From NCBI GenBank assembly GCA_947561715.1, contig OX387202.1, forward strand, positions 16,505,001 through 16,569,000: 64,000 nt of DNA, read 5' to 3'. Made by a program: the position numbers and the translations under genes. This DNA comes from Ascidia mentula (taxonomy: Eukaryota; Chordata; Ascidiacea; Phlebobranchia; Ascidiidae). Each line of letters opens with the position of its first letter. Within the stretch, counting starts at the first letter, position 1. Under the pieces are notes generated by a model that was given only the letters and a program-made list of their open reading frames with translations, did no database searches and had not been told where the DNA came from. Of this stretch, positions 20,615 through 63,900 are shown piece by piece.

Positions 20615-21437
20615 CTTATGACAAAACAATATGATATGTGTGACGCAGGTATACGCAGAAAAACTCCCGCCGCCGAAACTCACCTTCAAGCACAGTATTA
20701 CACTTCAAAATTATTTTGCGCTGGGGGAAATTATGCAAACTTAAGCACGGCGCACCATTCGTAAACCGAACGTATAAGTTTGGCTGACGTCCGAATAAGT
20801 GCTGATTGGCCGTGCCAAGCTTAAACGCACTAAACCGAGCTTAAAGCAAGCTAGGCCCATACTAAACGGGTAGATAATTTTTGACTGGGATGGTTCAGCC
20901 AATTCCTTCCGCAAAACCATTGAATACAAACAGCTATTTAGACATCTCGTTTCGTGGTGAGCCCTCAACGTTGAGGTAAATTTTAAAACGCTTACTTTCA
21001 TTGTGTTGAAATGGTGAGCGAAAACATCAGTCATGCTTAAAGATTTGCACGTATTTGTAATTTGTTCAATTTTAGCGCTGGGGCATTTTGATGGGGATTG
21101 AGGTGATGCCGTTGTTGACGCCAACTTAAACTCATGAAAATAAAATCGGTCCAAGCAATGTATTTGCGTCATGTAGATAACGATTACAAGTTTAATCTCT
21201 GTCTGTGTGTTCCCAACAAAGCTTCACATTATGTACCAACATTGCCCGTTATCTTCACAGACATCTTATCAATGAACTTGACAAGGATTTCCAAGACAGT
21301 GTTTACAGACAGGACCCACACGCAGATATAAAACATTCCATCACAACAACTTTCCGCACTGTGGTTTGTGTGAATGGCGCGCTCAGACAGGAAAACATTC
21401 TGAAAAAACATTAATTCTGTGTTATAAACGCCCAGGG

Positions 21438-21444
21438 TATAAAA
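21438..21444 (+). promoter_or_regulatory. TATA box of the Kazal gene (unit 1)
   Basis: CCAGGGTATAAAAATTAG lies 129 bp upstream of the Kazal start codon and is unchanged in all eight units, giving a plausible core promoter with a 5' UTR near 100 nt. Confidence 0.6.
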
Positions 21445-21566
21445 ATTAGATTATTTTTTATAGTTTTAATCTTACACAGTTTTAAATGTATCGATTATGA
21501 AATAATTACTGTTTTCGTTTTCAATTATGGTTACATTTAGAAATCGGAGAAAGACTTGATCAAAGC

Positions 21567-22102
21567 ATGAAGACTGCAATAGTTGCACTGTTGGTCGTGT
21601 TGTTGCTCTGCACAGCTTCAGTTAGAGGTTTACCTGCGCCATGCAGACAGTTAGTATTTGTTTAAAATATGATTTATGTCATTTGTCCCTTATCGTACTT
21701 TTATTTGTCTTCATTCTCAATCTGGCATTTATATGCAAAGTTTCTCCGAACAAAATTAAGTATTAAACCGTTTGCATTCTTTTTCGTGCAATTTATGTTG
21801 ACTGATAATTTTTCAAATTTCAAGGCCTTGGAAATTATGATTTACGTAAGAATAATTTATCGTTGGTAATGATTTCTTATTCTGCCTATACTTTTATTGC
21901 AGGAAATGCCCTCGTAATTATCAACCGGTATGTGGAAGTGATGGTATAACACATGACCATATTTGCATGTTGAACTTTTCATCGTGCATACAGTAAGTAT
22001 TTCACACTAGGCAAAATATTTAAACTAAAAGTACGCATTATAATTTGCAGGGTAACCGCTGGAGGTGACGAAATTACTCTGATTAAGGAAGGAGAATGCT
22101 GA
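21567..22102 (+). CDS. secreted Kazal-type serine protease inhibitor, unit 1
   Basis: Exons 21567-21649, 21903-21992 and 22051-22102 total 225 nt and encode 74 residues. A signal peptide ([20 protein letters not shown]) is followed by one Kazal domain with six cysteines in canonical order (PC, KC, VC, IC, SC, EC) and the hallmark YQPVCGSDG. In Kazal inhibitors P1 is the second residue after the second Cys; here that is Arg (CPRNY), predicting a trypsin-like target. Single-domain secreted Kazal proteins block extracellular serine proteases by tight substrate-like binding. Exon junctions fall just before the second Cys and after the fifth. Polyadenylation signals (AATAAA) occur about 20 and 70 bp after the stop. 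The IMPACT fragment follows 247 bp downstream on the same strand. Confidence 0.93.
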
Positions 22103-22348
22103 GAAGCAAAGGTTCAAGAATAAACAAAATAAAATTGCTTCAATTTTATCGTCTTGCTTGTAATTGTTGAATAAAAGAAACATTCAATTTTGAATAATGC
22201 ACACCTATTAGCGCGATGTTTTTTTAAATTAGAAAGCAGAGGCAACTTTATTCCTTGAACCTTGATGGTGCGGATAATAAGGGGCAAAATTGTAGCGGGG
22301 AAGTCCCTGAAAAATGGACAGTGCGTTTTGACTGGATTGTTTGTAATA

Positions 22349-22995
22349 ATGGACGATTTAAGTCGACAAATTAAAGAGATAGAAGCAATTTCTTCAATTT
22401 ACGAGGGTGATTGGTCGGTGGTCAACGAGTGTTCCAGACACTTCCGGTTGAGAATAGGCCAGAACAGCCCTTTGTTGCTGGTGTTTGAGGTAACTTTACC
22501 CGCAGATCAACCTTCTCAAGCGATTCCTAAATATTCATTCTCTGCACCCTGGTTACAAAGAGTGGAACGACAAAGCGTAGAGAAAAGTATCGCCGACATC
22601 GGTGCTGATAATAAAGGAGAAAATGTTCTTTTTCTGTGGATTGAACACTTGCGTGGATTTGTGGATGAAAAAAATCAAGAATTTAAATTGGTGAAAGCCA
22701 ACAAAAAAGCCCAATCTAAAGTATCAAAAACAGAAAGTGAGACCGTGTATAAAGGACACAGTATTTATCATGGTGATCCATTTACAGACAGAAAAAGTAC
22801 ATTCCAAGGTCATCTAGCTGTCATTGCAAAACAATCTCAGGTTCAACAGGTGTTACAAGAACTACTAAAAATTCGAAAAATTTCCAATGCAACGCATAAT
22901 ATTTACGCCTACAGAGTTTTTAACAAGAAAGCAAATACTTTTCATCAAGATTGTGATGATGACGGAGAGACACATGCTGGGGAAAGGTTTTACAT
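22349..22995 (+). pseudogene. IMPACT 5' fragment, unit 1, cut by LTR insertion
   Basis: IMPACT (YIH1 in yeast) binds GCN1 through an RWD domain and so restrains GCN2, the amino-acid starvation kinase. The likely start is MDDLSRQ at 22349 (earlier in-frame codons lack a good context). Residues about 5-110 form the RWD domain (IEAISSIYEGDW, then TLPADQPSQAIPKYSF). Residues from about 150 are the first half of the IMPACT/UPF0029 domain (DRKSTFQGHLAVI, HNIYAYRV, DCDDDGETHAG). There is no intron, unusual next to the spliced Kazal gene and compatible with an old retrocopy. The family sequence stops at the ACAT target site where the LTR starts; the missing third is at 61736-61970. One base is missing just before the LTR relative to units 3, 5, 6 and 7. 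Confidence 0.9.
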
Positions 22996-25479
22996 TGTAA
23001 CATACGTCACAGAAACCAGTGCTTGAATTGCGTAATGTTTTGCGCGCAGCTTTGCACATGTAATGCATAATCCCATAATGTGACCCAAATGATTTAGCCA
23101 TCGAATATTCTCGAGTAAAATAATACAAGGAGGATCAACTCCTTCAGCTAGAGTGTAAAACAGAATGTGTGAACAAGCGACTGCTAGTACAGCACGCGTG
23201 AATCATTTATATCCGCTCCCACAGATAATCTTGATGTGTACTGTATTTTATGTTCCTGCAATATATTACTCATGATATCACGTGACATTATTGACCAATC
23301 AGCTCTCATAATGGAGAGCGTAAAAGAGCTCAGTTTAGACCGGTAAATTCATTCTATTTGATTCTATTTGATTATATTTGGTTCTATTTGATTCTATTTG
23401 ATTCCATTCGATTCTACTTGTTTTATCGTATTACTGTTACACTGCTAATATTACTGAGACTCTACAAGCTATTCGCCGGCTTGGGATATATTCCCATAGC
23501 CTGATAATAAACTGTTTATTTGGAATCAGCGGTTTGCTGGTGAGAACGAGGCAGAAGCAGATTTAACAATCGAAGAGACTCAATAACCGCTCAGGCCATC
23601 GAGACACTGTTAAATATCTCAGAAACACTTCGAGTTATTTACAATAGTGCCCCGTCTTCGGCAACTCCCTTGAGATCAGAGAAAAGAAGCAGGCGTGTTT
23701 CACCAGCCAGTACACCAAGATACCCGGCAAACCGACGAGGCAGCCCGTACAACTCCAGGCGACCAGCACGCCAAACCAGAAGCCCAGGTGACAATCTGTC
23801 TCCAACTTCTCAAATATTTTTTGACCAGGAACTCCAGCTCTATTCCCGGCCGCGCAACCACTCAACCTTGGCCCCCCTCTTGGCAAGCGCACTTAGGCGC
23901 CGAAGACAATCATCTGGAAGCAAGGAACCTTCTACACCTCCCCCACGCAACATCAGGACCAAATCACGTTCACCACTTGGACCAGCGGACTCGTTTCCAC
24001 AACAAGGAAGACGCCCCACTCAACATCTTGGAACCCAACAGCACACAGCACAGCGAAGGAGATCGGAACAACCGCAGCAATTCTGCCCAACGAGAGGTAG
24101 AATACCTTCGACAATAACAGAAACGAATAATTCAAAAACTATAATCGCTCGCACACGCATTTAATTGTTTATTGATAACCGACTTTTTATTGCATGATCA
24201 TTTTTTTTCAATGTGCATATTGTGTTTCACCCCTTTGAAAGCCTAATAGCTCCCATAAGACCTAGGTCGCTAGGGAAATTTTTATAAACTTACATAGTTT
24301 AGCGCCAATTGTTTGTCCGGCATAACGGTTTGTCACTACCAATAGGAAACCATAATAATTACAGACTGCTAACGCAAAAGCCTGTTGTTTTTGGCAATTA
24401 CAAATTAATGCAAACGCCTGTTGTTTCGGCATTTGCAACCCATCTTCCCCAAACCAGCATATTGCTCCAGTCGCCATTTTTTTATCAACCTTTGTGTTGG
24501 GTTTAAACCCAACAAACTTGTAACAACCACGTTGAGTAAATTCATGAAGGAAGCCACTTTTTCGCCCGTAAGTAAGCGCACACGCAGTAAAACAGTAAAC
24601 CCATTATCCCCAAGCCAAACCGTCGCCATGTCAACAAGCGAAGCAGAAATTCCCATAGTTTCGCCGCGTAGTGTGTCATCGGAAACAAATCCGTCAAGTC
24701 CCCCGGCGCACAATCACGATAACGCCGCCAATAAAGCACAACCGTTCAGGCGTAACGCATTTCAGCCACGTAATACAGCACCGCAACGCGCGACCGGAAG
24801 CTCTTCTCAGCTGTTTCAGCAGCCGCAGCAGTACAGTACGTCACAGCAGCCGAGCAAGCCATTTTCGGGATATCCCCCAAATAGACAGCGTTATAACTCA
24901 GACTTATGTTTTTATCACGCGCGTTTCGGTCCCCGTGCAAATAAATGCACTCCCCCTTGCCAATGGAAAGGCAATTAACAAGACATCCCTCCTTGTACAT
25001 AATTCTATTATTAACCATGTTTTGGTGCACTGGCACAACTAACCTTGATTTCAATTTGCGCATTTGTTCGCCGCAACAAGTTGCGGAATACGAGATATTC
25101 CCCCGAAAACCTGCCATCGCCACCTGCTCAACATGACCAAAAACTGCCAAGTTAATGGTTTCCGCCTTGATAGAAATTTAAAGGAAATTCCAGCCATATC
25201 ATATTTAAATGATCAATTACGATCAAGTTTCCAACACCTGAATGCTGATGCATCTTACCTAGAATGTCAACTGCAATCTTATCTCTCGTTGCTACTTGCA
25301 ACTAACGCGCGCATTACCCCTCTCTTACTATATCATTACTCACGGGACAACAGAAAGCAGCCATTACTGGAGAAACTATCACAGAGATAGGCTGCACGTA
25401 CCGAAATGTACGTATACGCTCTTTACAATACATTAATGTGTATGCCACAATCCATTGTTTACCGAATTAGCAGGGCCCG
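22996..25479 (+). mobile_element. LTR retroelement remnant, unit 1 (5' LTR and partial interior)
   Basis: The 5' LTR is 22996-23643 (TGTAACATACG to TTATTTACA). It contains a decamer minisatellite (ATTCTATTTG type, seven repeats at 23351-23420) and an AATAAA signal. The interior keeps an Arg/Ser-rich leader region and a gag-like 3' part (about 24421-24978) that ends in CFYHARFGPRANKCTPPC, a Cys/His motif known from gag C-termini of invertebrate Ty3/Gypsy elements. It ends at the array joint. The copy is broken and non-autonomous, without a pol region. Young, judging from LTR similarity across the window. Confidence 0.85.
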
Positions 25480-26055
25480 CTTACTTTCATTGTGTTGAAA
25501 TGGCGAGCGAAAACATCAGTCATGCATAAAGATTTGCACGTATTTGTAATTTGTTCAATTTTAGCGCTGGGACATTTTGATGGGGATTGAGGTGATGCCG
25601 TTGTTGACGCCAACTTAAACTCATGAAAATAAAATCGGCCCAAGCAATGTATTCGCGTCATGTAGATAACGATTACAAGTTTAATCTCTGTCTGTGTGTT
25701 CCCAACAAAGCTTCACATTATGTACCAACATTGCCCGTTATCTTCACAGACATGTTATCAATGAACTTGACAAGGATTTCCAAGACAGTGTTTACAGACT
25801 GGACCCACACGCAGATATAAAACATTCCGTCACAACAACTTTCCGCACTGTGGTTTGTGTGAATGGCGCGCTCAGACAGGAAAACATTCTGAAAAAACAT
25901 TAATTCTGTGTTATAAACGCCCAGGGTATAAAAATTAGATTATTTTTTATAGTTTTAATCTTACACAGTTTTAAATGTATCGATTATGAAATAATTACTG
26001 TTTTCGTTTTCAATTATGGTTACATTTAGAAATCGGAGAAAGACTTGATCAAAGC

Positions 26056-26591
26056 ATGAAGACTGCAATAGTTGCACTGTTGGTCGTGTTGTTGCTCTGC
26101 ACAGCTTCAGTTAGAGGTTTTCCTGCGCCATGCAGACAGTTAGTATTTGTTTAAAATATGATTTATGTCATTTGTCCCTTATCGTACTTTTATTTGTCTT
26201 CATTCTCAATCTGGCATTTATATGCAAAGTTTCTCCGAACAAAATTAAGTATTAAACCGTTTGCATTCTTTTTCGTGCAATTTATGTTGACTGATAATTT
26301 TTCAAATTTCAAGGCCTTGGAAATTATGATTTACGTAAGAATAATTTATCGTTGGTAATGATTTCTTATTCTGCCTATACTTTTATTGCAGGAAATGCCC
26401 TCGTAATTATCAACCGGTATGTGGAAGTGATGGTATAACACATGCCCATATTTGCATGTTGAACTTTTCATCGTGCATACAGTAAGTATTTCACACTAGG
26501 CAAAATATTTAAACTAAAAGTACGCATTATAATTTGCAGGGTAACCGCTGGAGGTGACGAAATTACTCTGATTAAGGAAGGAAAATGCTGA
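26056..26591 (+). CDS. Kazal-type inhibitor, unit 2
   Basis: Three exons at the same offsets as unit 1 and a full reading frame. Differences: RGFPAPC instead of RGLPAPC, THAHIC instead of THDHIC, and KEGKC at the end. P1 is Arg. Confidence 0.92.
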
Positions 26592-26837
26592 GAAGCAAAG
26601 GTTCAAGAATAAACCACATAAAATTGCTTCAATTTTATCGTCTTGCTTGTAATTGTTGAATAAAAGAAACATTCAATTTTGAATAAAGCACACCTATTAG
26701 CGCGATGTTTTTTTAAATTAGAAAGCAGAGGCAACTTTATTCCATGAACCTTGATGGTGTGGATAATAAGGGGCAAAATTGTAGCGGGGAAGTCCCAGAA
26801 AAATGGACAGTGCGTTTTGACTGGATTGTTTGTAATA

Positions 26838-27484
26838 ATGGACGATTTAAGTCGACAAATTGAAGAGATAGAAGCAATTTCTTCAATTTACGAGGGTGAT
26901 TGGTCGGTGGTCAACGAGTGTTCCAGACACTTCCGGTTGAGAATAGGCCAGAACAGCCCTTTGTTGCTGGTGTTTGAGGTAACTTTACCCGCAGATCAAC
27001 CTTCTCAAGCGATTCCTAAATATTCATTCTCTGCACCCTGGTTACAAAGAGTGGAACGACAAAGCGTGGAGAAAAGTATCGCCGACATCGGTGCTGATAA
27101 TAAAGGAGAAAATGTTCTTTTTCTGTGGATTGAACACTTGCGTGGATTTGTGGATGAAAAAAATCAAGAATTTAAATTGGTGAAAGCCAACAAAAAAGCC
27201 CAATCTAAAGTATCAAAAACAGAAAGTGAGACCGTGTATAAAGGACACAGTATTTATCATGGTGATCCATTTACAGACAGAAAAAGTACATTCCAAGGTC
27301 ATCTAGCTGTCATTGCAAAACAATCTCAGGTTCAACAGGTGTTACAAGAACTACTAAAAATTCGAAAAATTTCCAATGCAACGCATAATATTTACGCCTA
27401 CAGAGTTTTTAACGAGAAAGCAAATACTTTTCATCAAGATTGTGATGATGACGGAGAGACACATGCTGGGGAAAGGTTTTACAT
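26838..27484 (+). pseudogene. IMPACT 5' fragment, unit 2
   Basis: RWD domain and half IMPACT domain, ending at the LTR. It carries the same one-base loss before the LTR as unit 1 and has QPSQ in the RWD domain. Confidence 0.88.
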
Positions 27485-30400
27485 TGTAACATACGTCACA
27501 GAAACCAGTGCTTGAATTGCGTAATATTTTGCGCGCAGCTTTGCACATGTAATGCATAATCCCATAATGTGACCCAAATGATTTAGCCATCGAATATTCT
27601 CGAGTAAAATAATACAAGGAGGATCAACTCCTTCAGCTAGTGTGCAACAGAATGTGTGAACAAGCGACTGCTAGTACAGCACGCGTGAATCATCTATATC
27701 CGCTCCCACAGATAATCTTGATGTGTACTGTATTTTATGTTCCTGCAATATATTACTCATGATATCACGTGACATTATTGACCAATCAGCTCTCATAATG
27801 GAGAGCGTAAAAGAGCTCAGTTTAGACCGGTAAATTCATTCTATTTGATTCTATTTGATTATATTTGGTTCTATTTGATTCTATTTGATTCCATTCGATT
27901 CTACTTGTTTTATCGTATTACTGTTACACTGCTAATATTACTGAGACTCTACAAGCTATTCGCCGGCTTGGGATTTATTCCCATAGCCTGATAATAAACT
28001 GTTTATTTGGAATCAGCGGTTTGCTGGTGAGAACGAGGCAGAAGCAGATTTAACAATCGAAGAGACTCAATAACCGCTCAGGCCATCGAGACACTGTTAA
28101 ATATCTCAGAAACACTTCGAGTTATTTACAATAGTGCCCCGTCTTCGGCAACTCCCTTGAGATCAGAGAAAAGAAGCAGACGTGTTTCACCAGCCAGTAC
28201 ACCAAGATACCCGGCAAACCGACGAGGCAGCCCGTACAACTCCAGGCGACCAGCACGCCAAACCAGAAGCCCAGGTGACAATCTGTCTCCAACTTCTCAA
28301 ATATTTTTTGACCAGGAACTCCAGCTCTATTCCCGGCCGCGCAACCACTCAACCTTGGCCCCCCTCTTGGCAAGCGCACTTAGGCGCCGAAGACAATCAT
28401 CTGGAAGCAAGGAACCTTCTACACCTCCCCCACGCAACATCAGGACCAAATCACGTTCACCACTTGGACCAGCGGACTCGTTTCCACAACAAGGAAGACG
28501 CCCCACTCAACATCTTGGAACCCAACAGCACACAGCACAGCGAAGGAGATCGGAACAACCGCAGCAATTCTGCCCAACGAGAGGTAGAATACCTTCGACA
28601 ATAACAAAAACGAATAACTCAAAAACTATAATCGCTCGCACACGCATTTAATTGTTTATTGATAACCGACTTTTTATTGCATGATCATTTTTTTTCAATC
28701 TGCAGGCCGCATCTCTGTATTTCTATGGAAAAGACTTTCCCGGTTGGGAATTGCCCTTCTCGAACTCGTGCGTAACAGAGTAAAATTGTGTGTAACAATG
28801 CAATGGGTCATGCATGGGCGCCAGTGTTTTGGTTGAATGAGCGCAGATGAACAGGCTGTTGCCAGGGCGATTTTCAGCGTGTTTGGGGCAGTTTTAGTTT
28901 GTTTTTCAGGGCTATTAGTCAGGCAGTAAATTGGTAGAGGGTGCTGTTGTACATGTAGCTGAAAAACTACCCAAATATTGAGGTTGATTTTGTGAAAAAA
29001 TGAATCAGAGAAAGTATGTTCAATTTGTGATTTTCTGTTAGTGCGGACCCTTGGCAAGGAATTGTGGCCAAATTTATAATCAAAATAACTACTTAAACTG
29101 CTCCCCCGGGGGCATTTTGACCCTCTGTTGGCCATTATTTTGGTCAAAAAAGCAGAAAAAAGTGTAGGTTTGTTTTGTGAAAAAATGAATCAGAGAAAGT
29201 TACCTCCATTTGCGATTAAGTGAAGCCACCAACCCTCCTCTACACAATTCATGAAGAATTAGATGTCTTGTAATTGTCTTGGGGCCCCACCGGGGCTGTT
29301 TGTACACCCCCTAGGACTGACAATTTAGCAGTTAGCCTTTGCAAAACCCCCCAATGTGCTGTCTTAATGCAGCTGCAATCAATTTTTTTTCTGTTCAGCA
29401 ATAGTAGACCCCCCCATGAGTCATCAGACCCGGCAATTGTTTTTGGCAAACAAGAGAAACTGTAACCAGGTGCACAATAACAAATGACTTCTAAAACTCA
29501 ATTTTTAGGATTTAATTGAGAGATGCGGCCTGCATATTGTGTTTCACCCCTTTGAAAGCCTAATAGCTCCCATAAGACCTAGGTCGCTAGGGAAATTTTT
29601 ATAAACTTACATAGTTTAGCGCCAATTGTTTGTCCGGCATAACGGTTTGTCACTACCAATAGGAAACCATAATAATTACAGACTGCTAACGCAAAAGCCT
29701 GTTGTTTTTGGCAATTACAAATTAATGCAAACGCCTGTTGTTTCGGCATTTGCAACCCATCTTCCCCAAGCCAGCATATTGCTCCAGTCGCCATTTTTTT
29801 ATCAACCTTTGTGTTGGGTTTAAACCCAACAAACTTGTAACAACCACGTTGAGTAAATTCATGAAGGAAGCCACTTTTTCGCCCGTAAATAAGCGCACAC
29901 GCAGTAAAACAGAAAACCCATTATCCCCAAGCCAAACCGTCGCCATGTCAACAAGCGAAGCAGAAATTCCCATAGTTTCGCCGCGTAGTGTGTCATCGGA
30001 AACAAATCCGTCAAGTCCCCCGGCGCACAATCACGATAACGCCGCCAATAAAGCACAACCGTTCAGGCGTAACGCATTTCAGCCACGTAATACAGCACCG
30101 CAACGCGCGACCGGAAGCTCTTCTCAGCTGTTTCAGCAGCCGCAGCAGTACAGTACGTCACAGCAGCCGAGCAAGCCATTTTCGGGATATCCCCCAAATA
30201 GACAGCGTTATAACTCAGACTTATGTTTTTATCACGCGCGTTTCGGTCCCCGTGCAAATAAATGCACTCCCCCTTGCCAATGGAAAGGCAATTAACAAGA
30301 CATCCCTCCTTGTGCATAATTCTATTATTAACCATGTTTTGGTGCACTGGCACAACTAACCTTGATTTCAATTTGCGCATTTGTTCGCCGCAACAAGTTG

Positions 30401-30946
30401 CGGAATACGAGATATTCCCCCGGAAACCTGCCATCGCCACCTGCTCAACATGACCAAAAACTGCCAAGTTAATGGTTTCCGCCTTGATAGAAATTTAAAG
30501 GAAATTCCAGCCATATCATACCGCTGTAGAAATAATTACTACGGACACTTATTACTTTTTTGGAGCACAAACATCCCACTCCATGCGATTTTGTCCAGCC
30601 CAATTATCAGGCACTATTTACGCCCGCCTGCTAAGGCAATGCCGACTGCTATTGGTTTTTACCAAAACGATTTAAATGATCAATTACGATCAAGTTTCCA
30701 ACACCTGAATGCTGATGCATCTTACCTAGAATGTCAACTGCAATCTTATCTCTCGTTGCTACTTGCAACTAACGCGCGCATTACCCCTCTCTTACTATAT
30801 CATTACTCACGGGACAACAGAAAGCAGCCATTACTGGAGAAACTATCACAGAGATAGGCTGCACGTACCGAAATGTACGTATACGCTCTTTACAATACAT
30901 TAATGTGTATGCCACAATCCATTGTTTACCGAATTAGCAGGGCCCG
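27485..30946 (+). mobile_element. LTR retroelement remnant, unit 2, carrying a nested DNA transposon
   Basis: 5' LTR at 27485-28130, then the partial interior with the gag-like region at about 29738-30295. It is interrupted by the nested element at 28705-29530 and ends at the array joint. Broken. Confidence 0.85.
28701..29534. mobile_element. non-autonomous DNA transposon nested in unit 2
   Basis: An 826-bp insert (28705-29530) is bounded by inverted termini GGCCGCATCTCT and AGAGATGCGGCC and flanked by TGCA on both sides. Units without the insert have a single TGCA at this site, so TGCA is the likely 4-bp target duplication. Inside, AAAAAATGAATCAGAGAAAG occurs twice about 180 bp apart. There is no transposase frame. 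Superfamily not determined. Confidence 0.8.
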
Positions 30947-31522
30947 CTTACTTTCATTGTGTTGAAATGGTGAGCGAAAACATCAGTCATGCATAAAGAT
31001 TTGCACGTATTTGTAATTTGTTCAATTTTAGCGCTGGGGCATTTTCATGGGGATTGAGGTGATGCCGTTGTTGACGCCAACTTAAACTCATGAAAATAAA
31101 ATCGGTCCAAGCAATGTATTTGCGTCATGTAGATAACGATTACAAGTTTAATCTCTGTCTGTGTGTTCCCAACAAAGCTTCACATTATGTACCAACATTG
31201 CCCGTTATCTTCACAGACATCTTATCAATGAACTTGACAAGGATTTCCAAGACAGTGTTTACAGACAGGACCCACACGCAGATATAAAACATTCCATCAC
31301 AACAACTTTCCGCACTGCGGTTTGTGTGAATGGCGCGCTCAGACAGGAAAACATTCTGAAAAAACATTAATTCTGTGTTATAAACGCCCAGGGTATAAAA
31401 ATTAGATTATTTTTTATAGTTCTAATATTACACAGTTTTAAATGTATCGATTATGAAATAATTACTGTTTTTGTTTTCAATTATGGTTACATTTAGAAAT
31501 CGGAGATAGACTTGATCAAAGC

Positions 31523-32058
31523 ATGAAGACTGCAATAGTTGCACTGTTGGTCGTGTTGTTGCTCTGCACAGCTTCAGTTAGAGGTTTACCTGCGCCATGC
31601 AGACAGTTAGTATTTGTTTAAAATATGATTTATGTCATTTGTCCCTTATCGTACTTTTATTTGTCTTCATTCTCAATCTGGCATTTATATGCAAAGTTTC
31701 TCCGAACAAAATTAAGTATTAAACCGTTTGCATTCTTTTTCGTGCAATTTATGTTGACTGATAATTTTTCAAATTTCAAGGCCTTGGAAATTATGATTTA
31801 CGTAAGAATAATTTATCGTTGGTAATGATTTCTTATTCTGCCTATACTTTTATTGCAGGAAATGCCCTCGTCATTATCAACCGGTATGTGGAAGTGATGG
31901 TATAACACATGCCAATATTTGCAGGTTGAACTTTTCATCGTGCATACAGTAAGTATTTCACACTAGGCAAAATATTTAAACTAAAAGTACGCATTATAAT
32001 TTGCAGGGTAACCGCTGGAGGTGACGAAATTACTCTGATTAAGGAAGGAGAATGCTGA
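31523..32058 (+). CDS. Kazal-type inhibitor, unit 3
   Basis: Full three-exon frame. Variants: CPRHYQPVC in the reactive loop (P2' Asn to His) and THANICRLN after the third Cys, the latter shared in part with unit 8. P1 stays Arg. Confidence 0.92.
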
Positions 32059-32304
32059 GAAGCAAAGGTTCAAGAATAAACAAGATAAAATTGCTTCAAT
32101 TTTATCGTCTTGCTTGTAATTGTTGAATAAAAGAAACATTCAATTTTGAATAATGCACACCTATTAGCGCGATGTTTTTTTAAATTAGAAAGCAGAGGCA
32201 ACTTTATTCCATGAACCTTGATGGTGCGGATAATAAGGGGCAAAATTGTAGCGGGGAAGTCCCAGAAAAATGGACAGTGCGTTTTGACTGGATTGTTTGT
32301 AATA

Positions 32305-49882: not shown

Positions 49883-50646
49883 GTGACTACCTTGACGTTT
49901 ACAAACTTACCTATCATGGACACAGTGCAAGGTATAGCGTGATTCCCGTAACAATTATTGAAGTTACCTATCGATGACGTAGTACAGGTTAAATGATTTC
50001 AATTACTCCCTTGGATGAAAATATGTACCCTCCCTGTTTACCGCTGCAGTCATGTGTTTAGGTTACCGATTTTGTCCAGTTTACTGATCTTGGACGCTTA
50101 CCTATGTTAGCCGTAACGTTACAGCCCTATATGAATCCTCCAAGCAGACTTTTCTGCGGTCAAACTGGTTTCGACCTTCAGACTTTTTCGCAATAAACAC
50201 CAAGAGGCTTCCGTTTATAAAACTTGCTTGAGGGGAACGTCGCCGATCAAGCGTGAAACAGCTTACTAACGCTTAGCGATTTCGCTTCAAGTCTTTAGAA
50301 TGCAATATGAAGTTTTGAAATAACTTTATTTGTCATTTATGACAAACGCCCGGCCCTGCAGCGTCGATTGGAATAAACTTGTTGCAACTTGATCAACCGC
50401 ATCCAGTGCTATTCCACTGTTGCCCTCAAATCGTCCCTGAATCTAAACATTAATTAGATTTGGTTTAAAGACCTGAAGAAGTTCCAAGGTTTAGTGAAGT
50501 CGCAGTTTGGCGTCGACGGTCATTGGCCCACTTGGCTTCCAAGGGCCTTGCAGCCACGCAAACACAGAGACTTGTTGACAAATAATTTACTGGGCATCTG
50601 TGTTTGTTTGCGATTTTCTTGTTGTATGTTTTTCATAGTTATGTGG
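49883..50646. other. unique spacer between array units 6 and 7
   Basis: 764 bp that do not occur elsewhere in the window. On the right they join a 106-bp piece of the original upstream flank (50647-50752) that is otherwise present only before unit 1 (about 20891-20990). No gene, repeat or promoter recognised inside. It may be the true left flank of a second copy of the locus, or a join between haplotypes in assembly. Confidence 0.75.
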
Positions 50647-51328
50647 GTCGGATGGTTCAGCCAATTCCTTCCGCAAAACCATTGAATACAAACAGCTATT
50701 TAGACATCTCGTTTCGTGGTGAGCCCTCAACGTTGAGGTAAATTTTAAAACGCTTACTTTCATTGTGTTGAAATGGTGAGCGAAAACATCAGTCATGCAT
50801 AAAGATTTGCACGTATTTGTAGTTTGTTCAATTTTAGCGCTGGGGCATTTTGATGGGGATTGAGGTGATGCCGTTGTTGACGCCAACTTAAACTCATGAA
50901 AATAAAATCGGTCCAAGCAATGTATTTGCGTCATGTAGATAACGATTACAAGTTTAATCTCTGTCTGTGTGTTCCCAACAAAGCTTCACATTATGTACCA
51001 ACATTGCCCGTTATCTTCACACACATGTTATCAATGAACTTGACAAGGATTTCCAAGACAGTGTTTACAGACTGGACCCACACGCAGATATAAAACATTC
51101 CGTCACAACAACTTTCCGCACTGTGGTTTGTGTGAATGGCGCGCTCAGACAGGAAAACATTCTGAAAAAACATTAATTCTGTGTTATAAACGCCCAGGGT
51201 ATAAAAATTAGATTATTTTTTATAGTTTTAATCTTACACAGTTTTAAATGTATCGATTATGAAATAATTACTGTTTTCGTTTTCAATTATGGTTACATTT
51301 AGAAATCGGAGATAGACTTGATCTAAGC

Positions 51329-51864
51329 ATGAAGACTGCAATAGTTGCACTGTTGGTCGTGTTGTTGCTCTGCACAGCTTCAGTTAGAGGTTTACCTGCG
51401 CCATGCAGACAGTTAGTATTTGTTTAAAATATGATTTATGTCATTTGTCCCTTATCGTACTTTTATTTGTCTTCATTCTCAATCTGGCATTTATATGCAA
51501 AGTTTCTCCGAACAAAATTAAGTATTAAACCGTTTGCATTCTTTTTCGTGCAATTTATGTTGACTGATAATTTTTCAAATTTCAAGGCCTTGGAAATTAT
51601 GATTTACGTAAGAATAATTTATCGCTGGTAATGATTTCTTATTCTGCCTATACTTTTATTGCAGGAAATGCCCTCGTAATTATGCACCGGTATGTGGAAG
51701 TGATGGTATAACACATGACCATATTTGCATGTTGAACTTTTCATCGTGCATACAGTAAGTATTTCACACTAGGCAAAATATTTAAACTAAAAGTACGCAT
51801 TATAATTTGCAGGGTAACCGCTGGAGGTGACGAAATTACTCTGATTAAGGAAGGAGAATGCTGA
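51329..51864 (+). CDS. Kazal-type inhibitor, unit 7
   Basis: Full frame; the reactive loop has CPRNYAPVC (Gln to Ala), otherwise as unit 1. P1 Arg. Confidence 0.92.
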
Positions 51865-52110
51865 GAAGCAAAGGTTCAAGAATAAACAACATAAAATTGC
51901 TTCAATTTTATCGTCTTGCTTGTAATTGTTGAATAAAAGAAACATTCAATTTTGAATAATGCACACCTATTAGCGCGATGTTTTTTTAAATTAGAAAGCA
52001 GAGGCAACTTTATTCCATGAACCTTGATGGTGCGGATAATAAGGGGCAAAATTGTAGCGGGGAAGTCCCAGAAAAATGGACAGTGCGTTTTGACTGGATT
52101 GTTTGTAATA

Positions 52111-52758
52111 ATGGACGATTTAAGTCGACAAATTGAAGAGATAGAAGCAATTTCTTCAATTTACGAGGGTGATTGGTCGGTGGTCAACGAGTGTTCCAGA
52201 CACTTCCGGTTGAGAATAGGCCAGAACAGCCCTTTGTTGCTGGTGTTTGAGGTAACTTTACCCGCAGACTATCCTTCTCAAGCGATTCCTAAATATTCAT
52301 TCTCTGCACCCTGGTTACAAAGAGTGGAACGACAAAGCGCAGAGAAATGTATCGCCGACATCGGTGCTGATAATAAACGAGAAAATGTTCGTTTTCTGTG
52401 GATTGAACACTTGCGTGGATTTGTGGATGAAAAAAATCAAGAATTTAAATTAGTGAAAGCCAACAAAAAAGCCCAATCTAAAGTATCAAAAACAGAAAGT
52501 GAGACCGTGTATAAAGGACCCAGTATTTATCATGGTGATCCATTTACAGACAGAAAAAGTACATTCCAAGGTCATCTAGCTGTCATTGCAAAACAATCTC
52601 AGGTTCAACAGGTGTTACAAGAACTACTAAAAATTTGAAAAATTTCCAATGCAACGCATAATATTTACGCCTACAGAGTTTTTAACAAGAAAGCAAATAC
52701 TTTTCATCAAGATTGTGATGATGACGGAGAGACACATGCTGGGGGAAGGGTTTTACAT
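52111..52758 (+). pseudogene. IMPACT 5' fragment, unit 7 (premature stop)
   Basis: The frame is open through the RWD domain, but a CGA to TGA change at 52636-52638 stops it inside the IMPACT domain, before the LTR. This is the most decayed IMPACT copy. Confidence 0.88.
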
Positions 52759-55450
52759 TGTAACATACGTCACAGAAACCAGTGCTTGAATTGCGTAATG
52801 TTTTGCGCGCAGCTTTGCACATGTAATGCATAATCCCATAATGTGACTCAAATGATTAAGCCATCGAATATTCTCGAGTAAAATAATACAAGGAGGATCA
52901 ACTCCTTCAGCTAGTGTGCAACAGAATGTGTGAACAAGCGACTGCTAGTACAGCACGCGTGAATCATCTATATCCGCTCCCACAGATAATCTTGATGTGT
53001 ACTGTATTTTATGTTCCTGCAATATATTACTCATGATATCACGTGACATTATTGACCAATCAGCTCTCATAATGGAGAGCGTAAAAGAGCCCAGTTTAGA
53101 CCGGTAAATTCATTCTATTTGATTCTATTTGATTCTATTTGATTCTATTTGATTCTATTTGATTCTATTTGGTTCTATGTGATTCTATTTGATTCAATTT
53201 GATTCTACTTGATTCTATTTGATTCCATTCGATTCTACTTGTTTTATCGTATTACTGTTACACTGCTAATATTACTGAGACTCTACAAGCTATTCGCCGG
53301 CTTGGGATTTATTCCCATAGCCTGATAATAAACTGTTTATTTGGAATCAGCGGTTTGCTGGTGAGAACGAGGCAGAAGCAGATTTAACAATCGAAGAGAC
53401 TCAATAACCGCTCAGGCCATCGAGACACTGTTAAATATCTCAGAAACACTTCGAGTTATTTACAATAGTGCCCCGTCTTTGGCAACTCCCTTGAGATCAG
53501 AGAAAAGAAGCAGACGTGTTTCACCAGCCAGTACACCAAGATACCCGGCAAACCGACGAGGCAGCCCGTACAACTCCAGGCGCCCAGCACGCCAAACCAG
53601 AAGCCCAGGTGACAATCTGTCTCCAACTTCTCAAATATTTTTTGAACAGGAACTCCAGCTCTATTCCCGGCCGCGCAACCACTCAACCTTGGCCCCCCTC
53701 TTGGCAAGCGCACTTAGGCGCCGAAGACAATCATCTGGAAGCAAGGAACCTTCTACACCTCCCCCACGCAACATCAGGACCAAATCACGTTCACCACTTG
53801 GACCAGCGGACTCGTTTCCACAACAAGGAAGACGCCCCACTCAACATCTTGGAACCCAACAGCACACAGCACAGCGAAGGAGATCGGAACAACCGCAGCA
53901 ATTCTGCCCAACGAGAGGTAGAATACCTTCGACAATAACAAAAACGAATAACTCAAAAACTATAATCGCTCGCACACGCATTTAATTGTTTATTGATAAC
54001 CGACTTTTTATTGCATGATCATTTTTTTTCAATGTGCATATTGTGTTTCACCCCTTTGAAAGCCTAATAGCTCCCATAAGACCTAGGTCGCTAGGGAAAT
54101 TTTTATAAATTTACATAGTTTAGCGCCAATTGTTTGTCCGGCATAACGGTTTGTCACTACCAATAGGAAACCATAATAATTACAGACTGCTTACGCAAAA
54201 GCCTGTTGTTTTTGGCAATTACAAATTAATGCAAACGCCTGTTGTTTCGGCATTTGCAACCCATCTTCCCCAAGCCAGCATATTGCTCCAGTCGCCATTT
54301 TTTTATCAACCTTTGTGTTGGGTTTAAACCCAACAAACTTGTAACAACCACGTTGAGTAAATTCATGAAGGAAGCCACTTTTTCGCCCGTAAGTAAGCGC
54401 ACACGCAGTAAAACAGTAAACCCATTATCCCCAAGCCAAACCGTCGCCATGTCAACAAGCGAAGCAGAAATTCCCATAGTTTCGCCGCGTAGTGTGTCAT
54501 CGGAAACAAATCCGTCAAGTCCCCCGGCGCACAATCACGATAACGCCGCCAATAAAGCACAACCGTTCAGGCGTAACGCATTTCAGCCACGTAATACAGC
54601 ACCGCAACGCGCGACCGGAAGCTCTTCTCAGCTGTTTCAGCAGCCGCAGCAGTACAGTACGTCACAGCAGCCGAGCAAGCCATTTTCGGGATATCCCCCA
54701 AATAGACAGCGTTATAACTCAGACTTATGTTTTTATCACGCGCGTTTCGGTCCCCGTGCAAATAAATGCACTCCCCCTTGCCAATGGAAAGGCAATTAAC
54801 AAGACATCCCTCCTTGTGCATAATTCTATTATTAACCATGTTTTGGTGCACTGGCACAACTAACCTTGATTTCAATTTGCGCATTTGTTCGCCGCAACAA
54901 GTTGCGGAATACGAGATATTCCCCCGGAAACCTGCCATCGCCACCTGCTCAACATGACCAAAAACTGCCAAGTTAATGGTTTCCGCCTTGATAGAAATTT
55001 AAAGGAAATTCCAGCCATATCATACCGCTGTAGAAATAATTACTACAGACACTTATTACTTTTTTGGAGCACAAACATCCCACTCCATGCGATTTTGTCC
55101 AGCCCAATTATCAGGCACTATTTACGCCCGCCTGCTAAGGCAATGCCGACTGCTATTGGTTTTTACCAAAACGATTTAAATGATCAATTACGATCAATTT
55201 TCCAACACCTGAATGCTGATGCATCTTACCTAGAATGTCAACTGCAATCTTATCTCTCGTTGCTACTTGCAACTAACGCGCGCATTACCCCTCTCTTACT
55301 ATATCATTACTCACGGGACAACAGAAAGCAGCCATTACTGGAGAAACTATCACAGAGATAGGCTGCACGTACCGAAATGTACGTATACGCTCTTTACAAT
55401 ACATTAATGTGTATGCCACAATCCATTGTTTACCGAATTAGCAGGGCCCG
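52759..55450 (+). mobile_element. LTR retroelement remnant, unit 7
   Basis: 5' LTR at 52759-53464, the longest in the array owing to its decamer tract; gag-like region at about 54242-54799; ends at the array joint. Broken. Confidence 0.85.
53111..53240 (+). repeat. decamer minisatellite inside the LTR (longest allele)
   Basis: About 13 repeats of the ATTCTATTTG type with interspersed GGTTC, CAATTT and CTACTT variants. The same tract has about seven repeats in unit 1 and intermediate numbers in other LTRs, so it mutates by repeat slippage or exchange within the array. Confidence 0.85.
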
Positions 55451-56026
55451 CTTACTTTCATTGTGTTGAAATGGTGAGCGAAAACATCAGTCATGCATAA
55501 AGATTTGCACGTATTTGTAATTTGTTCAATTTTAGCGCTGGGGCATTTTGATGGGGATTGAGGTGATGCCGTTGTTGACGCCAACTTAAACTCATGAAAA
55601 TAAAATCGGTCCAAGTAATGTATTTGCGTCATGTAGATAACGATTACAAGTTTAATCTCTGTCTGTGTGTTCCCAACAAAGCTTCACATTATGTACCAAC
55701 ATTGCCCGTTATCTTCACAGACATCTTATCAATGAACTTGACAAGGATTTCCAAGACAGTGTTTACAGACTGGACCCACACGCAGATATAAAACATTCCA
55801 TCACAACAACTTTCCGCACTGTGGTTTGTGTGAATGGCGCGCTCAGACAGGAAAACATTCTGAAAAAACATTAATTCTGTGTTATAAACGCCCAGGGTAT
55901 AAAAATTAGATTATTTTTTTTAGTTTTAATCTTACATAGTTTTAAATGTATCGATTATGAAATAATTACTGTTTTCGTTTTCAATTATGGTTACATTTAG
56001 AAATCGGAGATAGACTTGATCAAAGC

Positions 56027-56562
56027 ATGAAGACTGCAATAGTTGCACTGTTGGTCGTGTTGTTGCTCTGCACAGCTTCAGTTAGAGGTTTTCCTGCGCC
56101 ATGCAGACAGTTAGTATTTGTTTAAAATATGATTTATGTCATTTGTCCCTTATCGTACTTTTATTTGTCTTCATTCTCAATCTGGCATTTATATGCAAAG
56201 TTTCTCCGAACAAAATTAAGTATTAAACCGTTTGCATTCTTTTTCGTGCAATTTATGTTGACTGATAATTTTTCAAATTTCAAGGCCTTGGAAATTATGA
56301 TTTACGTAAGAATAATTTATCGTTGGTAATGATTTCTTATTCTGCCTATACTTTTATTGCAGTATATGCGTTCTTGCTCTTATACCGGTATGTGGAAGTG
56401 ATGGTATCACATATGCCAATATTTGCAGGTTGAACTTTTTATCGTGCAGACAGTAAGTATTTCACACTAGGCAAAATATTTAAACTAAAAGTACGCATTA
56501 TAATTTGCAGGGTAACCGCTGGAGGTGACGAAATTACTCTGATTAAGGAAGGAGAATGCTGA
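56027..56562 (+). CDS. Kazal-type inhibitor, unit 8, with replaced reactive-site loop
   Basis: Exons 1 and 3 and both introns match the other copies almost base for base. Exon 2 (56363-56452) differs at 18 of 90 positions from unit 1, 11 of them within its first 22 nt. The loop reads [13 protein letters not shown] instead of CPRNYQPVCGSDG, so P1 becomes Leu (predicting chymotrypsin- or elastase-like targets). The following segment is [13 protein letters not shown], closer to the textbook Kazal consensus. Of the changed codons only one (ATA to ATC, Ile) is silent. All six cysteines, splice sites and frame are kept, so the gene should be functional. Confidence 0.92.
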
Positions 56563-56808
56563 GAAGCAAAGGTTCAAGAATAAACAAAATAAAATTGCTT
56601 CAATTTTATCGTCTTGCTTGTAATTGTTGAATAAAAGAAACATTCAATTTTGAATAATGCACACCTATTAGCGCGATGTTTTTTTAAATTAGAAAGCAGA
56701 GGCAACTTTATTCCATGAACCTTGATGGTGCGGATAATAAGGGGCAAAATTGTAGCGGGGAAGTCCCAGAAAAATGGACAGTGCGTTTTGACTGGATTGT
56801 TTGTAATA

Positions 56809-57455
56809 ATGGACGATTTAAGTCGACAAATTGAAGAGATAGAAGCAATTTCTTCAATTTACGAGGGTGATTGGTCGGTGGTCAACGAGTGTTCCGGACA
56901 CTTCCGGTTGAGAATAGGCCAGAACAGCCCTTTGTTGCTGGTGTTTGAGGTAACTTTACCCGCAGACTATCCTTCTCAAGCGATTCCTAAATATTCATTC
57001 TCTGCACCCTGGTTACAAAGAGTGGAACGACAAAGCGTAGAGAAAAGTATCGCCGACATCGGTGCTGATAATAAAGGAGAAAATGTTCTTATTCTGTGGA
57101 TTGAACACTTGCGTGGATTTGTGGATGAAAACAATCAAGAATTTAAATTGGTGAAAGCCAACAAAAAAGCCCAATCTAAAGTATCAAAAACAGAAAGTGA
57201 GACCGTGTATAAAGAACCCAGTATTTATCATGGTGATCCATTTACAGACAGAAAAAGTACATTCCAAGGTCATCTAGCTGTCATTGCAAAACACTCTCAG
57301 GTTCAACAGGTGTTACAAGAACTACTAAAAATTCGAAAAATTTCCAATGCAACGCATAATATTTACGCCTACAGAGTTTTTAACGAGAAAGCAAATACTT
57401 TTCATCAAGATTGTGATGATGACGGAGAGACACATGCTGGGGAAAGGTTTTACAT
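56809..57455 (+). pseudogene. IMPACT 5' fragment, unit 8 (5' part of the split original locus)
   Basis: Same fragment as in the other units, followed by the only element copy that leads through to the IMPACT 3' end. It has the one-base loss before the LTR. Private changes include CSGHF, LILW and HSQVQQ, so it is drifting. ACAT at 57452-57455 is the left target duplication. Confidence 0.88.
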
Positions 57456-60400
57456 TGTAACATACGTCACAGAAACCAGTGCTTGAATTGCGTAATGTTT
57501 TGCGCGCAGCTTTGCACATGTAATGCATAATCCCATAATGTGACCCAAATGATTTAGCCATCGAATATTCTCGAGTAAAATAATACAAGGAGGATCAACT
57601 CCTTCAGCTAGTGTGCAACAGAATGTGTGAACAAGCGACTGCTAGTACAGCACGCGTGAATCATCTATATCCGCTCCCACAGATAATCTTGATGTGTACT
57701 GTATTTTATGTTCCTGCAATATATTACTCATGATATCACGTGACATTATTGACCAATCAGCTCTCATAATGGAGAGCGTAACCGGTAAATTCATTCTATT
57801 TGATTCTATTTGGTTCTATTTGATTCTATTTGATTCCATTCGATTCTACTTGTTTTATCGTATTACTGTTACACTGCTAATAATACTGAGACTCTACAAG
57901 CTATTCGCCGGCTTGGGATTTATTCCCATAGCCTGATAATAAACCGTTTATTTGGAATCAGCGGTTTGCTGGTGAGAACGAGGCAGAAGCAGATTTAACA
58001 ATCGAAGAGACTCAATAACCGCTCAGGCCATCGAGACACTGTTAAATATCTCAGAAACACTTCGAGTTATTTACAATAGTGCCCCGTCTTCGGCAACTCC
58101 CTTGAGATCAGAGAAAAGAAGCAGACGTGTTTCACCAGCCAGTACACCAAGATACCCGGCAAACCGACGAGGCAGCCCGTACAACTCCAGGCGACCAGCA
58201 CGCCAAACCAGAAGACCAGGTGACAATCTGTCTCCAACTTCTCAAATATTTTTTGACCAGGAACTCCAGCTCTATTCCCGGCCGCGCAACCACTCAACCT
58301 TGGCCCCCCTCTTGGCAAGCGCACTTAGGCGCCGAAGACAATCATCTGGAAGCAAGGAACCTTCTACACCTCCCCCACGCAACATCAGGACCAAATCACG
58401 TTCACCACTTGGACCAGCGGACTCGTTTCCACAACAAGGAAGACGCCCCACTCAACATCTTGGAACCCAACAGCACAGCGAAGGAGATCGGAACAACCGC
58501 AGCAATTCTGTCCAACGAGAGGTAGAATACCTTCGACAATAACAAAAACGAATAATTCAAAAACTATAATCGCTCGCACACGCATTTAATTGTTTATTGA
58601 TAACCGACTTTTTATTGCATGATCATTTTTTTTCAATGTGCATATTGTGTTTCACCCCTTTGAAAGCCTAATAGCTCCCATAAGACCTAGGTCGCTAGGG
58701 AAATTTTTATAAACTTACATAGTTTAGCGCCAATTGTTTGTCCGGCATAACGGTTTGTCACTACCAATAGGAAACCATAATAATTACAGACTGCTAACGC
58801 AAAAGCCTGTTGTTTTTGGCAATTACAAATTAATGCAAACGCCTGTTGTTTCGGCATTTGCAACCCATCTTCCCCAAGCCAGCATATTGCTCCAGTCGCC
58901 ATTTTTTTATCAACCTTTGTGTTGGGTTTGAACCCAACAAACTTGTAACAACCACGTTGAGTAAATTCATGAAGGAAGCCATTTTTTCGCCCGTAAGTAA
59001 GCGCACACGCAGTAAAACAGTAAACCCATTATCCCCAAGCCAAACCGTCGCCATGTCAACAAGCGAAGCAGAAATTCCCATAGTTTCGCCGCGTAGTGTG
59101 TCATCGGAAACAAATCCGTCAAGTCCCCCGGCGCACAATCACGATAACGCCGCCAATAAAGCACAACCGTTCAGGCGTAACGCATTTCAGCCACGTAATA
59201 CAGCACCGCAACGCGCGACCGGAAGCTCTTCTCAGCTGTTTCAGCAGCCGCAGCAGTACAGTACGTCACAGCAGCCGAGCAAGCCATTTTCGGGATATCC
59301 CCCAAATAGACAGCGTTATAACTCAGACTTATGTTTTTATCACGCGCGTTTCGGTCCCCGTGCAAATAAATGCACTCCCCCTTGCCAATGGAAAGGCAAT
59401 TAACAAGACATCCCTCCTTGTACATAATTCTATTATTAACCATGTTTTGGTGCACTGGCACAACTAACCTTGATTTCAATTTGCGCATTTGTTCGCCGCA
59501 ACAAGTTGCGGAATACGAGATATTCCCCCGGAAACCTGCCATCGCCACCTGCTCAACATGACCAAAAACTGCCATGTGAATGGTTTCCGCCTTGATAGAA
59601 ATTTAAAGGAAATTCCAGCCATATCATACCGCTGTAGAAATAATTACTACAGACACTTATTACTTTTTTGGAGCACAAACATCCCACTCCATGCGATTTT
59701 GTCCAGCCCAATTATCATGCACTATTTACGCCCGCCTGCTGAGGCAATGCCGACTGCTATTGGTTTTTACCAAAACGATTTAAATGATCAATTACGATCA
59801 AGTTTCCAACACCTGAATGCTGATGCATCTTACCTAGAATGTCAACTGCAATCTTATCTCTCGTTGCTACTTGCAACTAACGCGCGCATTACCCCTCTCT
59901 TACTATATCATTACTCACGGGACAACAGAAAGCAGCCATTACTGGAGAAACTATCACAGAGATAGGCTGCACGTACCGAAATGTACGTATACGCTCTTTA
60001 CAATACATTAAGTGTATGCCACAATCCATTGTTTACCGAATTAGCAGGGCCCGCTAAATCGAAGCAAACCAAGTGGCAGCTGTATTCTAACAGAGAATTA
60101 CACTCAAAGGTACAGTTTGTAGAGCACTACCAACCTAATAGGATTTTTCACTTGAAAATACAAGGAAAAATCTTTCGGTTTATTAATTGTACAATGTCCC
60201 CGCAATTGCTTCCTATAAATAAGTCGATTAAGTAAGATAATTTTATCGAAGCTTCCAACATTCTATAGAATGTCCCTGTAGGAACCCCTCATTACCCGCT
60301 GAGGGATCTAGACTCAATTCTTGCGTCACTGGCACAGACCAAACGGCAGAATGAACGCTTAGACTCGTATTTTGGAGGCAAAAGGACTTCTCCAAAACGT

Positions 60401-61735
60401 CGGATGTGGCAAACTTGCGCATCCTCAAGCAGCATCCATTCAGTACTTAAACAAACGTTATTAATGACACTCTCCTCTATAACAGACCCATTTTGGAGCA
60501 GTATTTTGGCTATTTTAGTCATTTTATCCTTAATTTGGGGTGTCATATTAACAGGCTTTGCAATCAAGCATGTCTGGCTACGCCTATACCCACGTGTAAG
60601 ACCAACTATTGCTCATTATATAGCACGGGCTCGGACAAACTTAAATCCCTTCAATAGGAATGCACCAGGTAACGAACCTGAAGCAGCAGTACAAAACGAG
60701 GCTGAAAATAATCCCTTGCATGAATTGTACCCTGATTTACAAAATGTAAATGCCCAGCAATAAGAACCAGCCGCACCTCCTACTGCATAGGCGCATGGCC
60801 CTATCCATAAATCTTCTCGCATTGTTATCACCCCCACGACATGGTAATGACCCTTTGTGTATTCGCATGTCATTGCACATTTGTTGCGACTTTTCCTTGT
60901 GCACCATTATAACCGAGATTTCTCTATTAATAACTTACCAAATTTGCGTATTATATCATTTTTTTTCGCACCCACCATTTGCAATTTACTCGTTCAATCG
61001 CATTAAAATCCTTTTTAATCGCCCACAGCTGATGTTATATTCATCACCTGCAAATCTAGGGGGAAGTACTTGTAACATACGTCACAGAAACCAGTGCTTG
61101 AATTGCGTAATGTTTTGCGCGCAGCTTTGCACATGTAATGCATAATCCCATAACGTGCCCCAAATGATTTAGCCATCGAATATTCTCGAGTAAAATAATA
61201 CAAGGAGGATCAACTCCTTCAGCTAGTGTGCAACAGAATGTGTGAACAAGCGACTGCTAGTACAGCACGCGTGAATCATCTATATCCGCTCCCACAGATA
61301 ATCTTGATGTGTACTGTATTTTATGTTCCTGCAATATATTACTCATGATATCACGTGACATTATTGACCAATCAGCTCTCATAATGGAGAGCGTAAAAGA
61401 GCCAGTTTAGACCGGTAAATTCATTCTATTTGATTCTATTTGGTTCTATTTGATTCTATTTGATTCAATTTGATTCTACTTGATTCTATTTGATTCCATT
61501 CGATTCTACTTGTTTTATCGTATTACTGTTACACTGCTAATATTACTGAGACTCTACAAGCTATTCGCCGGCTTGGGATTTATTCCCATAGCCTGATAAT
61601 AAACTGTTTATTTGGAATCAGCGGTTTGCTGGTGAGAACGAGGCAGAAGCAGATTTAACAATCGAAGAGACTCAATAACCGCTCAGGCCATCGAGACACT
61701 GTTAAATATCTCAGAAACACTTCGAGTTATTTACA
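57456..61735 (+). mobile_element. LTR retroelement (Ty3/Gypsy-like, env-like region), both LTRs present, non-autonomous
   Basis: 5' LTR 57456-58075; 3' LTR 61071-61735. Target duplication ACAT at 57452-57455 and 61736-61739. A purine tract (AGGGGGAAG) sits just before the 3' LTR. Parts: Arg/Ser-rich leader, gag-like 3' region with the CFYHARFG..KC..PC motif (58846-59403), then an env-like 3' region ending in a transmembrane segment (AILVILSLIWGVILTG) and a cytoplasmic tail (60404-60763). There is no protease, reverse transcriptase or integrase region. Broken, at least several lesions. The 4-bp target and env-like frame recall Gypsy/errantivirus kin. The LTRs are very similar, so insertion was recent. 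No convincing primer-binding site recognised. Confidence 0.85.
61071..61735 (+). repeat. 3' LTR of the retroelement
   Basis: 665 bp from TGTAACATACG to TTATTTACA, with the decamer minisatellite and AATAAA signal. It is directly followed by ACAT and the continuation of IMPACT, which fixes the LTR edge precisely. Confidence 0.92.
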
Positions 61736-61970
61736 ACATTTACTTCAAATATTAGATGCAAGAAATGTTATTGTTGTGGTTTCGCGATGGTACGGAGGGA
61801 TTCAGTGGGGACCAGATAGATTCAAACATATCAACAATGCTGCCAGAAGCATTTTGTTGAAACATGGATTCATTCAAGAAAATAAAAACAAAATAAAATC
61901 CATTTTTAAACTAAATTCTTTGAAATGTTCTTTCATCAGTTTGCATAAATCTGGCAATGCAATTTTTTAA
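61736..61970 (+). pseudogene. IMPACT 3' fragment (C-terminal part of the IMPACT/UPF0029 domain)
   Basis: Directly after the 3' LTR the frame LLQILDARNVIVVVSRWYGG continues with IQWGPDRFKHINNAARS and runs to TAA at 61968-61970. VVVSRWYGG and GPDRFKHINN are the most conserved IMPACT signatures and are absent from all eight 5' fragments. The sequence resumes exactly where the 5' fragments stop (ACAT shared), proving that one insertion split the gene. It has no start codon or promoter of its own apart from the adjacent LTR. It converges with the methyltransferase gene 168 bp away. Confidence 0.93.
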
Positions 61971-62138
61971 ATGTGACATTTTGGTGTGATAAAGTGGTCG
62001 AATAAATAATTTAGATGTGTTGATATTTTAATAGTGCTATATTGGTGCAATATTAACAGCTAAATGGAGTTGTATAAATAATGTTGTCGGCGATACAAGA
62101 CTTTCTATTTTCCACTAAAAAATGTAATTTAAACTGTC

Positions 62139-63900
<1,762 letters not shown>

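Follow-up and report, generated by a model that had tools for sequence, protein, structure and literature searches.

The stretch of Ascidia mentula DNA analysed here (the window, 64,000 nucleotides, C70:16505001-16569000, where C70 denotes the contig carrying it; the assembly comprises 195.8 Mb in 79 contigs) contains a tandem array in which a Kazal-type protease inhibitor gene is repeated together with pieces of the neighbouring IMPACT gene and of a long terminal repeat (LTR) retroelement.

Organization of the array

Using self-BLAST and a repeat search, eight direct head-to-tail units (c1 to c8) were recovered between 20989 and 60055, confirming the copy number of the original prediction, a reading of the bare sequence. 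They start at 20989, 25478, 30945, 35516, 40176, 45672, 50751 and 55449. Each unit consists of ca. 2.0 kb of host DNA, encompassing a complete three-exon Kazal gene and the 5' part of IMPACT, followed by a 5' LTR with a portion of the interior of the element. Downstream of c8, the interior continues beyond the unit breakpoint to a single 3' LTR, the ninth LTR of the locus (61067-61736), and then to the IMPACT 3' part. Units differ pairwise by 0.1-2.1% and additionally carry private indels. The features are, in window coordinates (TIR, terminal inverted repeat):

20888..20988, + strand: ancestral left flank kept beside c1, 101 bp; its left neighbour is a repeat at 20603-20891
20989..25477, + strand: unit c1; Kazal exons 21567-21649, 21903-21992 and 22051-22102, truncated IMPACT from 22349, LTR from 22997
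25478..30944, + strand: unit c2; carries a ca. 830-bp TIR insertion (28701-29531) in common with c5
30945..35515, + strand: unit c3
35516..40175, + strand: unit c4
40176..45671, + strand: unit c5; same TIR insertion as c2 (about 43427-44258)
45672..49882, + strand: unit c6; ends early within the element interior, and its LTR bears a large deletion
49881..50134, + strand: abnormal c6/c7 joint, an end fragment of a TIR transposon
50134..50750, + strand: ancestral left flank next to c7, matching the single-copy block collinearly from C70:21117133 on
50751..55448, + strand: unit c7; premature stop in the IMPACT fragment
55449..60055, + strand: unit c8; Kazal exons 56027-56109, 56363-56452 and 56511-56562, exon 2 diverged, Leu at P1
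60052..60055, + strand: CGCT, element-side parent of the normal joint
60056..61066, + strand: remaining element interior, single occurrence
61067..61736, + strand: 3' LTR, followed by the ACAT duplication
61737..61970, + strand: IMPACT 3' part, separated from the remainder by the element
62100..63460, - strand: FtsJ-type (MRM2-like) methyltransferase gene, stop and frameshift in the last exon

Insertion of the LTR element into IMPACT

Each of the eight 5' junctions has the sequence ACAT/TGTAACATA, and TTTACA/ACAT is found at the 3' junction, so that ACAT lies on both sides of the element. An LTR-free, unduplicated version of the block occurs once, about 4.5 Mb away on the same contig (C70:21117133-21126238, with an additional collinear piece at C70:21114954-21115754). 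At the corresponding site, C70:21120448, the IMPACT frame runs uninterrupted through GCATTTACTTC, one base off ACAT. Junctions and LTR-free site together support the earlier claim that an LTR element split IMPACT and duplicated ACAT. With its TG...CA LTRs and target-site duplication the element is an LTR retroelement; sibling elements elsewhere are likewise flanked by 4-bp duplications in three of three cases examined (CATG, CTAT, CGCC). Comparison of 5' with 3' LTR gave between 3/540 and 10/645 differing sites. The stretch following the 5' LTR is identical in c1, c8 and three sibling elements and, as a putative primer binding site, resembles the tRNA-Trp end only in part.

An interior open reading frame (ORF) encodes the Gag motif CX2HX9CX3C in all eight units, a motif described for the CsRn1-like Ty3/gypsy clade (PMC2582038). 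The 4-bp target duplications are a second likeness to CsRn1-like elements. Unlike in that clade, the four element ORFs scanned against Pfam yielded no family and no recognisable pol domain, so that the element is only a candidate member.

Joints between units

The joints leading into c2, c3, c4, c5, c6 and c8 all read GGGCC/CGCT/TACTTTC, and the 60 bp to their left are identical. Both parents of this joint are preserved, namely AAAA/CGCT/TACTTTC on the flank side, left of c1 and of c7, and GGGCC/CGCT/AAATCG on the element side, in c8. Since the parents share only CGCT, the overlap is exactly 4 bp. An overlap of at least 4 bp would be expected at about 1.6% of random joints, assuming equal base frequencies. 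The overlap supports the earlier claim of a repeated segment that begins in the upstream flank and reaches into the element. Recombination between LTRs was considered as an origin of the units and rejected because the joints sit in the element interior and the flank.

The c6/c7 joint (about 49881-50134) is different. Unit c6 stops at 49882 and is followed by a TIR-transposon fragment, then by ancestral left flank (617 bp) leading into c7, with a joint overlap of 2 bp (GC). The fragment, a terminal one with about 57-bp subrepeats, is common in the genome and up to 96% like other copies among the matches listed. At the left edge of the array, by comparison, c1 keeps merely 101 bp of ancestral flank next to another repeat. 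The c6/c7 joint is a second, different illegitimate event. The CGCT overlap, predicted for every normal joint, is thus found at six of the seven.

Being copies of a single joint, the six equal joints amount to one event as evidence. A short overlap between parents lacking long homology is what a microhomology-mediated tandem duplication leaves behind, seen here in one independent event. The proposal of one such event accordingly stands for the CGCT joint and has to make room for the second event at c6/c7, while its mechanistic label draws on a single independent joint.

Exchange among units and relative timing

The units contain 31 informative sites, and 235 of the 465 site pairs are incompatible with a single tree. 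Near pairs are incompatible less often than after shuffling (22 vs 44.0, p=0.0002). Variants are thus mosaic among units, and incompatible pairs combined with the better agreement of neighbouring sites indicate that tracts were exchanged between units. This bears out the exchange implied by the predicted expansion through unequal crossing-over, although these data do not tell gene conversion from unequal crossing-over. The ca. 830-bp TIR insertion, flanked by a TGCA duplication, is present in c2 and c5 only, and at least one stretch must therefore have been copied between units after the first duplication. A three-unit block duplication (c2-c4 to c5-c7), prompted by this common insertion, was not upheld because the distances between host parts do not follow it (c2-c5 0.78%, c3-c6 0.89%, against c5-c6 0.37%). 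Elsewhere in the genome, where 40 of 1414 candidates were scored, 38 of the 39 listed matches to the TIR element outside the window fall within C52:10.77-10.87 Mb, frequently at intervals of 1887 bp.

Without exon 2 of the Kazal gene, host parts diverge by 0.37-1.67% among units and by 1.31-1.73% from the single copy. Judged by these distances and those between the LTRs, insertion and amplification were close in time, and the block duplication is of the same or a slightly greater age. An initial impression that the host part was older than the element part did not hold, as most of the excess was due to exon 2. The largest LTR deletion among the units is that of c6.

Divergence of the Kazal reactive site

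The Kazal domain of c1 (PF00050) scores 43.6 bits against a curated cut-off of 21. Cysteines and reading frame are intact in all eight units and the N-terminus is hydrophobic, from which a secreted protease inhibitor is predicted. When the c1 Kazal protein was used as a query for homologues, no candidate was returned. A further cluster of Kazal-domain matches is located at C2:14526610-14557745, 37-49% like the array Kazal where matched.

Divergence is concentrated in exon 2, which encodes the reactive-site loop. Between c1 and c8, 18 of 90 exon 2 sites differ, compared with 0 of 311 in the introns (p=5e-13); the remaining host part differs at 20 of 1912 sites (p=2e-15). The loop is CPRNYQPVC in c1, c2, c4, c5 and c6, CPRHYQPVC in c3, CPRNYAPVC in c7 and CVLALIPVC in c8, while the broken single-copy Kazal gene encodes CGHDYLPVC. 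By alignment with ovomucoid, from which we take the place of P1, this residue is Leu in c8 but Arg in the other seven units. Hypervariable reactive sites are a known property of Kazal inhibitors such as ovomucoid third domains; there, too, change is concentrated in the protease-contacting loop. Unlike in ovomucoid, the differences seen here lie among tandem copies in one assembly that are elsewhere only about 1% apart. Codon models gave an omega of 6.2 for the mature inhibitor (p=0.022, 8 units) and 6.8 with the single copy included (p=0.010). For the truncated IMPACT, modelled without c7 owing to its premature stop, the values were 1.6 (p=0.34, 7 units) and 1.2 (p=0.64, single copy included). 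The Kazal gene body (21567-22102) without exon 2 has 4 variable sites in 446 vs 52 in 1467 in the flanks (p=0.002).

Gene conversion could instead have brought exon 2 of c8 in from a Kazal allele that was older or divergent, with no burst of selection in the array. Such an import would fit the abrupt contrast between exon 2 and the unchanged introns, the exchange seen among units and several c8 states held in common with the single copy. No donor beyond array and single copy was found among 9 assembly matches, the best other match being the single copy itself at 88%; the changes start at the first exon base and end 3 bases before the exon end; and c3, c7 and the single copy each have changes of their own. 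On balance we consider an import doubtful and favour diversification of exon 2 within the array.

A subtelomeric single-copy locus and reciprocal gene loss

The two loci have kept different genes. Among 10 matches scored, a complete UPF0029 domain (positions 1-107) occurs at the single-copy locus only, whereas the IMPACT copies of the array are incomplete, covering positions 1-67 to 1-72 of the 107. An RWD domain is found in the c1 fragment, and the fragments are open up to the LTR in seven of eight units, c7 having an early stop. The intact IMPACT protein is nearest to that of Phallusia mammillata (65%), the next named match being Clavelina lepadiformis (52%). The exons of the FtsJ-type, MRM2-like methyltransferase (PF01728) are likewise open at the single-copy locus, whereas in the window copy a stop and a frameshift disrupt the last exon. 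The Kazal gene, open in all eight array units, shows the opposite pattern. In its single copy, the signal-peptide exon has lost 5 bp, which shifts the frame, and intron 1 has a 695-bp insertion. With IMPACT and methyltransferase broken and Kazal open in the array, and the reverse at the subtelomeric locus, gene loss has been reciprocal.

The 21.12-Mb block might be thought to be the other haplotype of the 16.5-Mb locus, misplaced in the assembly; a divergence of 1.3-1.7% would fit two ascidian alleles too. However, collinearity ends on both sides within the 100 kb fetched around the block, where only five other matches of 150-330 bp occur. This 100-kb stretch contains no N and the contig continues to TTAGGG repeats, in which it terminates about 43 kb past the block, while reciprocal gene loss fits two loci better than two alleles. 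A misplaced haplotype is thus improbable, and we treat the blocks as two loci of one chromosome.

Ankyrin-repeat ORFs adjoin the right edge of the single-copy block (C70:21126239-21128000; L010:8360-9900), and none were seen beside the array. Both loci share ORFs (L012:388-2244, L010:5287-7120) which we take to resemble a transposase; the one scanned had no Pfam match.

Proposed history of the locus

Taken together, these observations make it likely that the array is a young tandem Kazal gene family born via LTR insertion, a CGCT-joined duplication, exchange and exon 2 diversification. The history would start from a three-gene block (Kazal, IMPACT, FtsJ-type methyltransferase) of which the assembly has two copies on the same chromosome, one at 16.5 Mb and one close to the telomere, at 21.12 Mb. 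At 16.5 Mb, the retroelement entered IMPACT, leaving the observed ACAT duplication. The segment from left flank to element interior would then have been duplicated in tandem via the 4-bp CGCT preserved in the joint, probably by end joining or template switching. Growth to eight units involved the recombination seen among units and one illegitimate joint at a transposon fragment, in an order that we can only suggest. The selected cargo would be the secreted Kazal inhibitor, whose protease-contacting loop, given the excess of change in exon 2, may have diversified under positive selection. The truncated IMPACT would be a passenger that can be tolerated thanks to the whole copy at the subtelomeric locus, where the Kazal gene would have decayed in return.

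An origin from an excised circle that was copied and reinserted, or from rolling-circle replication, instead of in-place tandem duplication, would explain why the six normal joints are identical, like a circle junction. It is very unlikely, as the outer edges of the first and last units are still ancestral and belong to one and the same site, and the copies show stepwise differences and a common insertion, making a circle unnecessary. An assembly error behind some of the eight copies is hardly credible: copy number is known from the assembled sequence alone, but the units carry private indels and substitutions and no N was met.

Several points weigh against in-place duplication followed by exon 2 diversification. 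All evidence is the sequence of one assembly from one individual. One joint is weak proof of a repair pathway. The c6 interior has 11 private differences, compared with 0-6 in other units, which exceeds what this history predicts. The exon 2 signal leans on c8, enrichment among c1-c7 being mild (6/90 vs 48/1913, p=0.03), and the nonsynonymous excess alone is modest (16 to 1 between c1 and c8 in exon 2, on 68.8 and 18.2 sites). The codon models assume a single tree despite recombination among units, and their null was evaluated at only six, coarsely spaced kappa values, which slightly favours rejection. Uniformity of the Kazal body outside exon 2 could also stem from conversion, and an allelic donor for c8 exon 2 is possible.

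The outline given by the original prediction holds; what it missed is the subtelomeric single-copy locus with IMPACT, the reciprocal loss and the focus of change at the Kazal reactive site. Its view of an uncommon, well-preserved gene-family birth is apt insofar as the instance is unusually complete, while the kind of event is already known. At Cyp6g1 of Drosophila, an LTR element, Accord, inserted at a host gene and raises its transcription, a duplication breakpoint lies beside the LTR, at least two gene copies are reported, and transposon and copy-number changes are reported to have followed (PMC2891717). The present locus likewise combines an LTR element at a host gene with duplication; unlike at Cyp6g1, there are eight copies, the element splits a neighbouring gene and the copies differ at the reactive site. 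In Adineta vaga, a Penelope retroelement is reported to be associated with expansion of a host gene family (PMC3846280), as here, with host DNA carried between pLTRs, unlike the tandem array with interior breakpoints described here. No report of this locus was found in the literature searched, which mostly did not cover subscription journals.

What distinguishes the locus is that the LTR-free state, reciprocal gene loss and reactive-site change are all kept in one genome. Most steps of gene-family birth can be read there: LTR-free single copy, insertion, duplication joint, exchange, passenger decay and divergence of the useful gene. It is about an even call whether the two loci also divided labour at the birth of the family. 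The array would then be an amplifying, diversifying Kazal cluster, in whose last unit P1 became Leu instead of Arg within a neutral divergence of about 1%, and the subtelomeric locus the sole keeper of IMPACT and methyltransferase. Damage to IMPACT by the element would have been free, and the element interior would have supplied the amplification breakpoint.

Upstream of the array, the window carries tandemly repeated segments of about 87-94% identity at 10417-17099, e.g. 11200-14778 vs 13517-17099.

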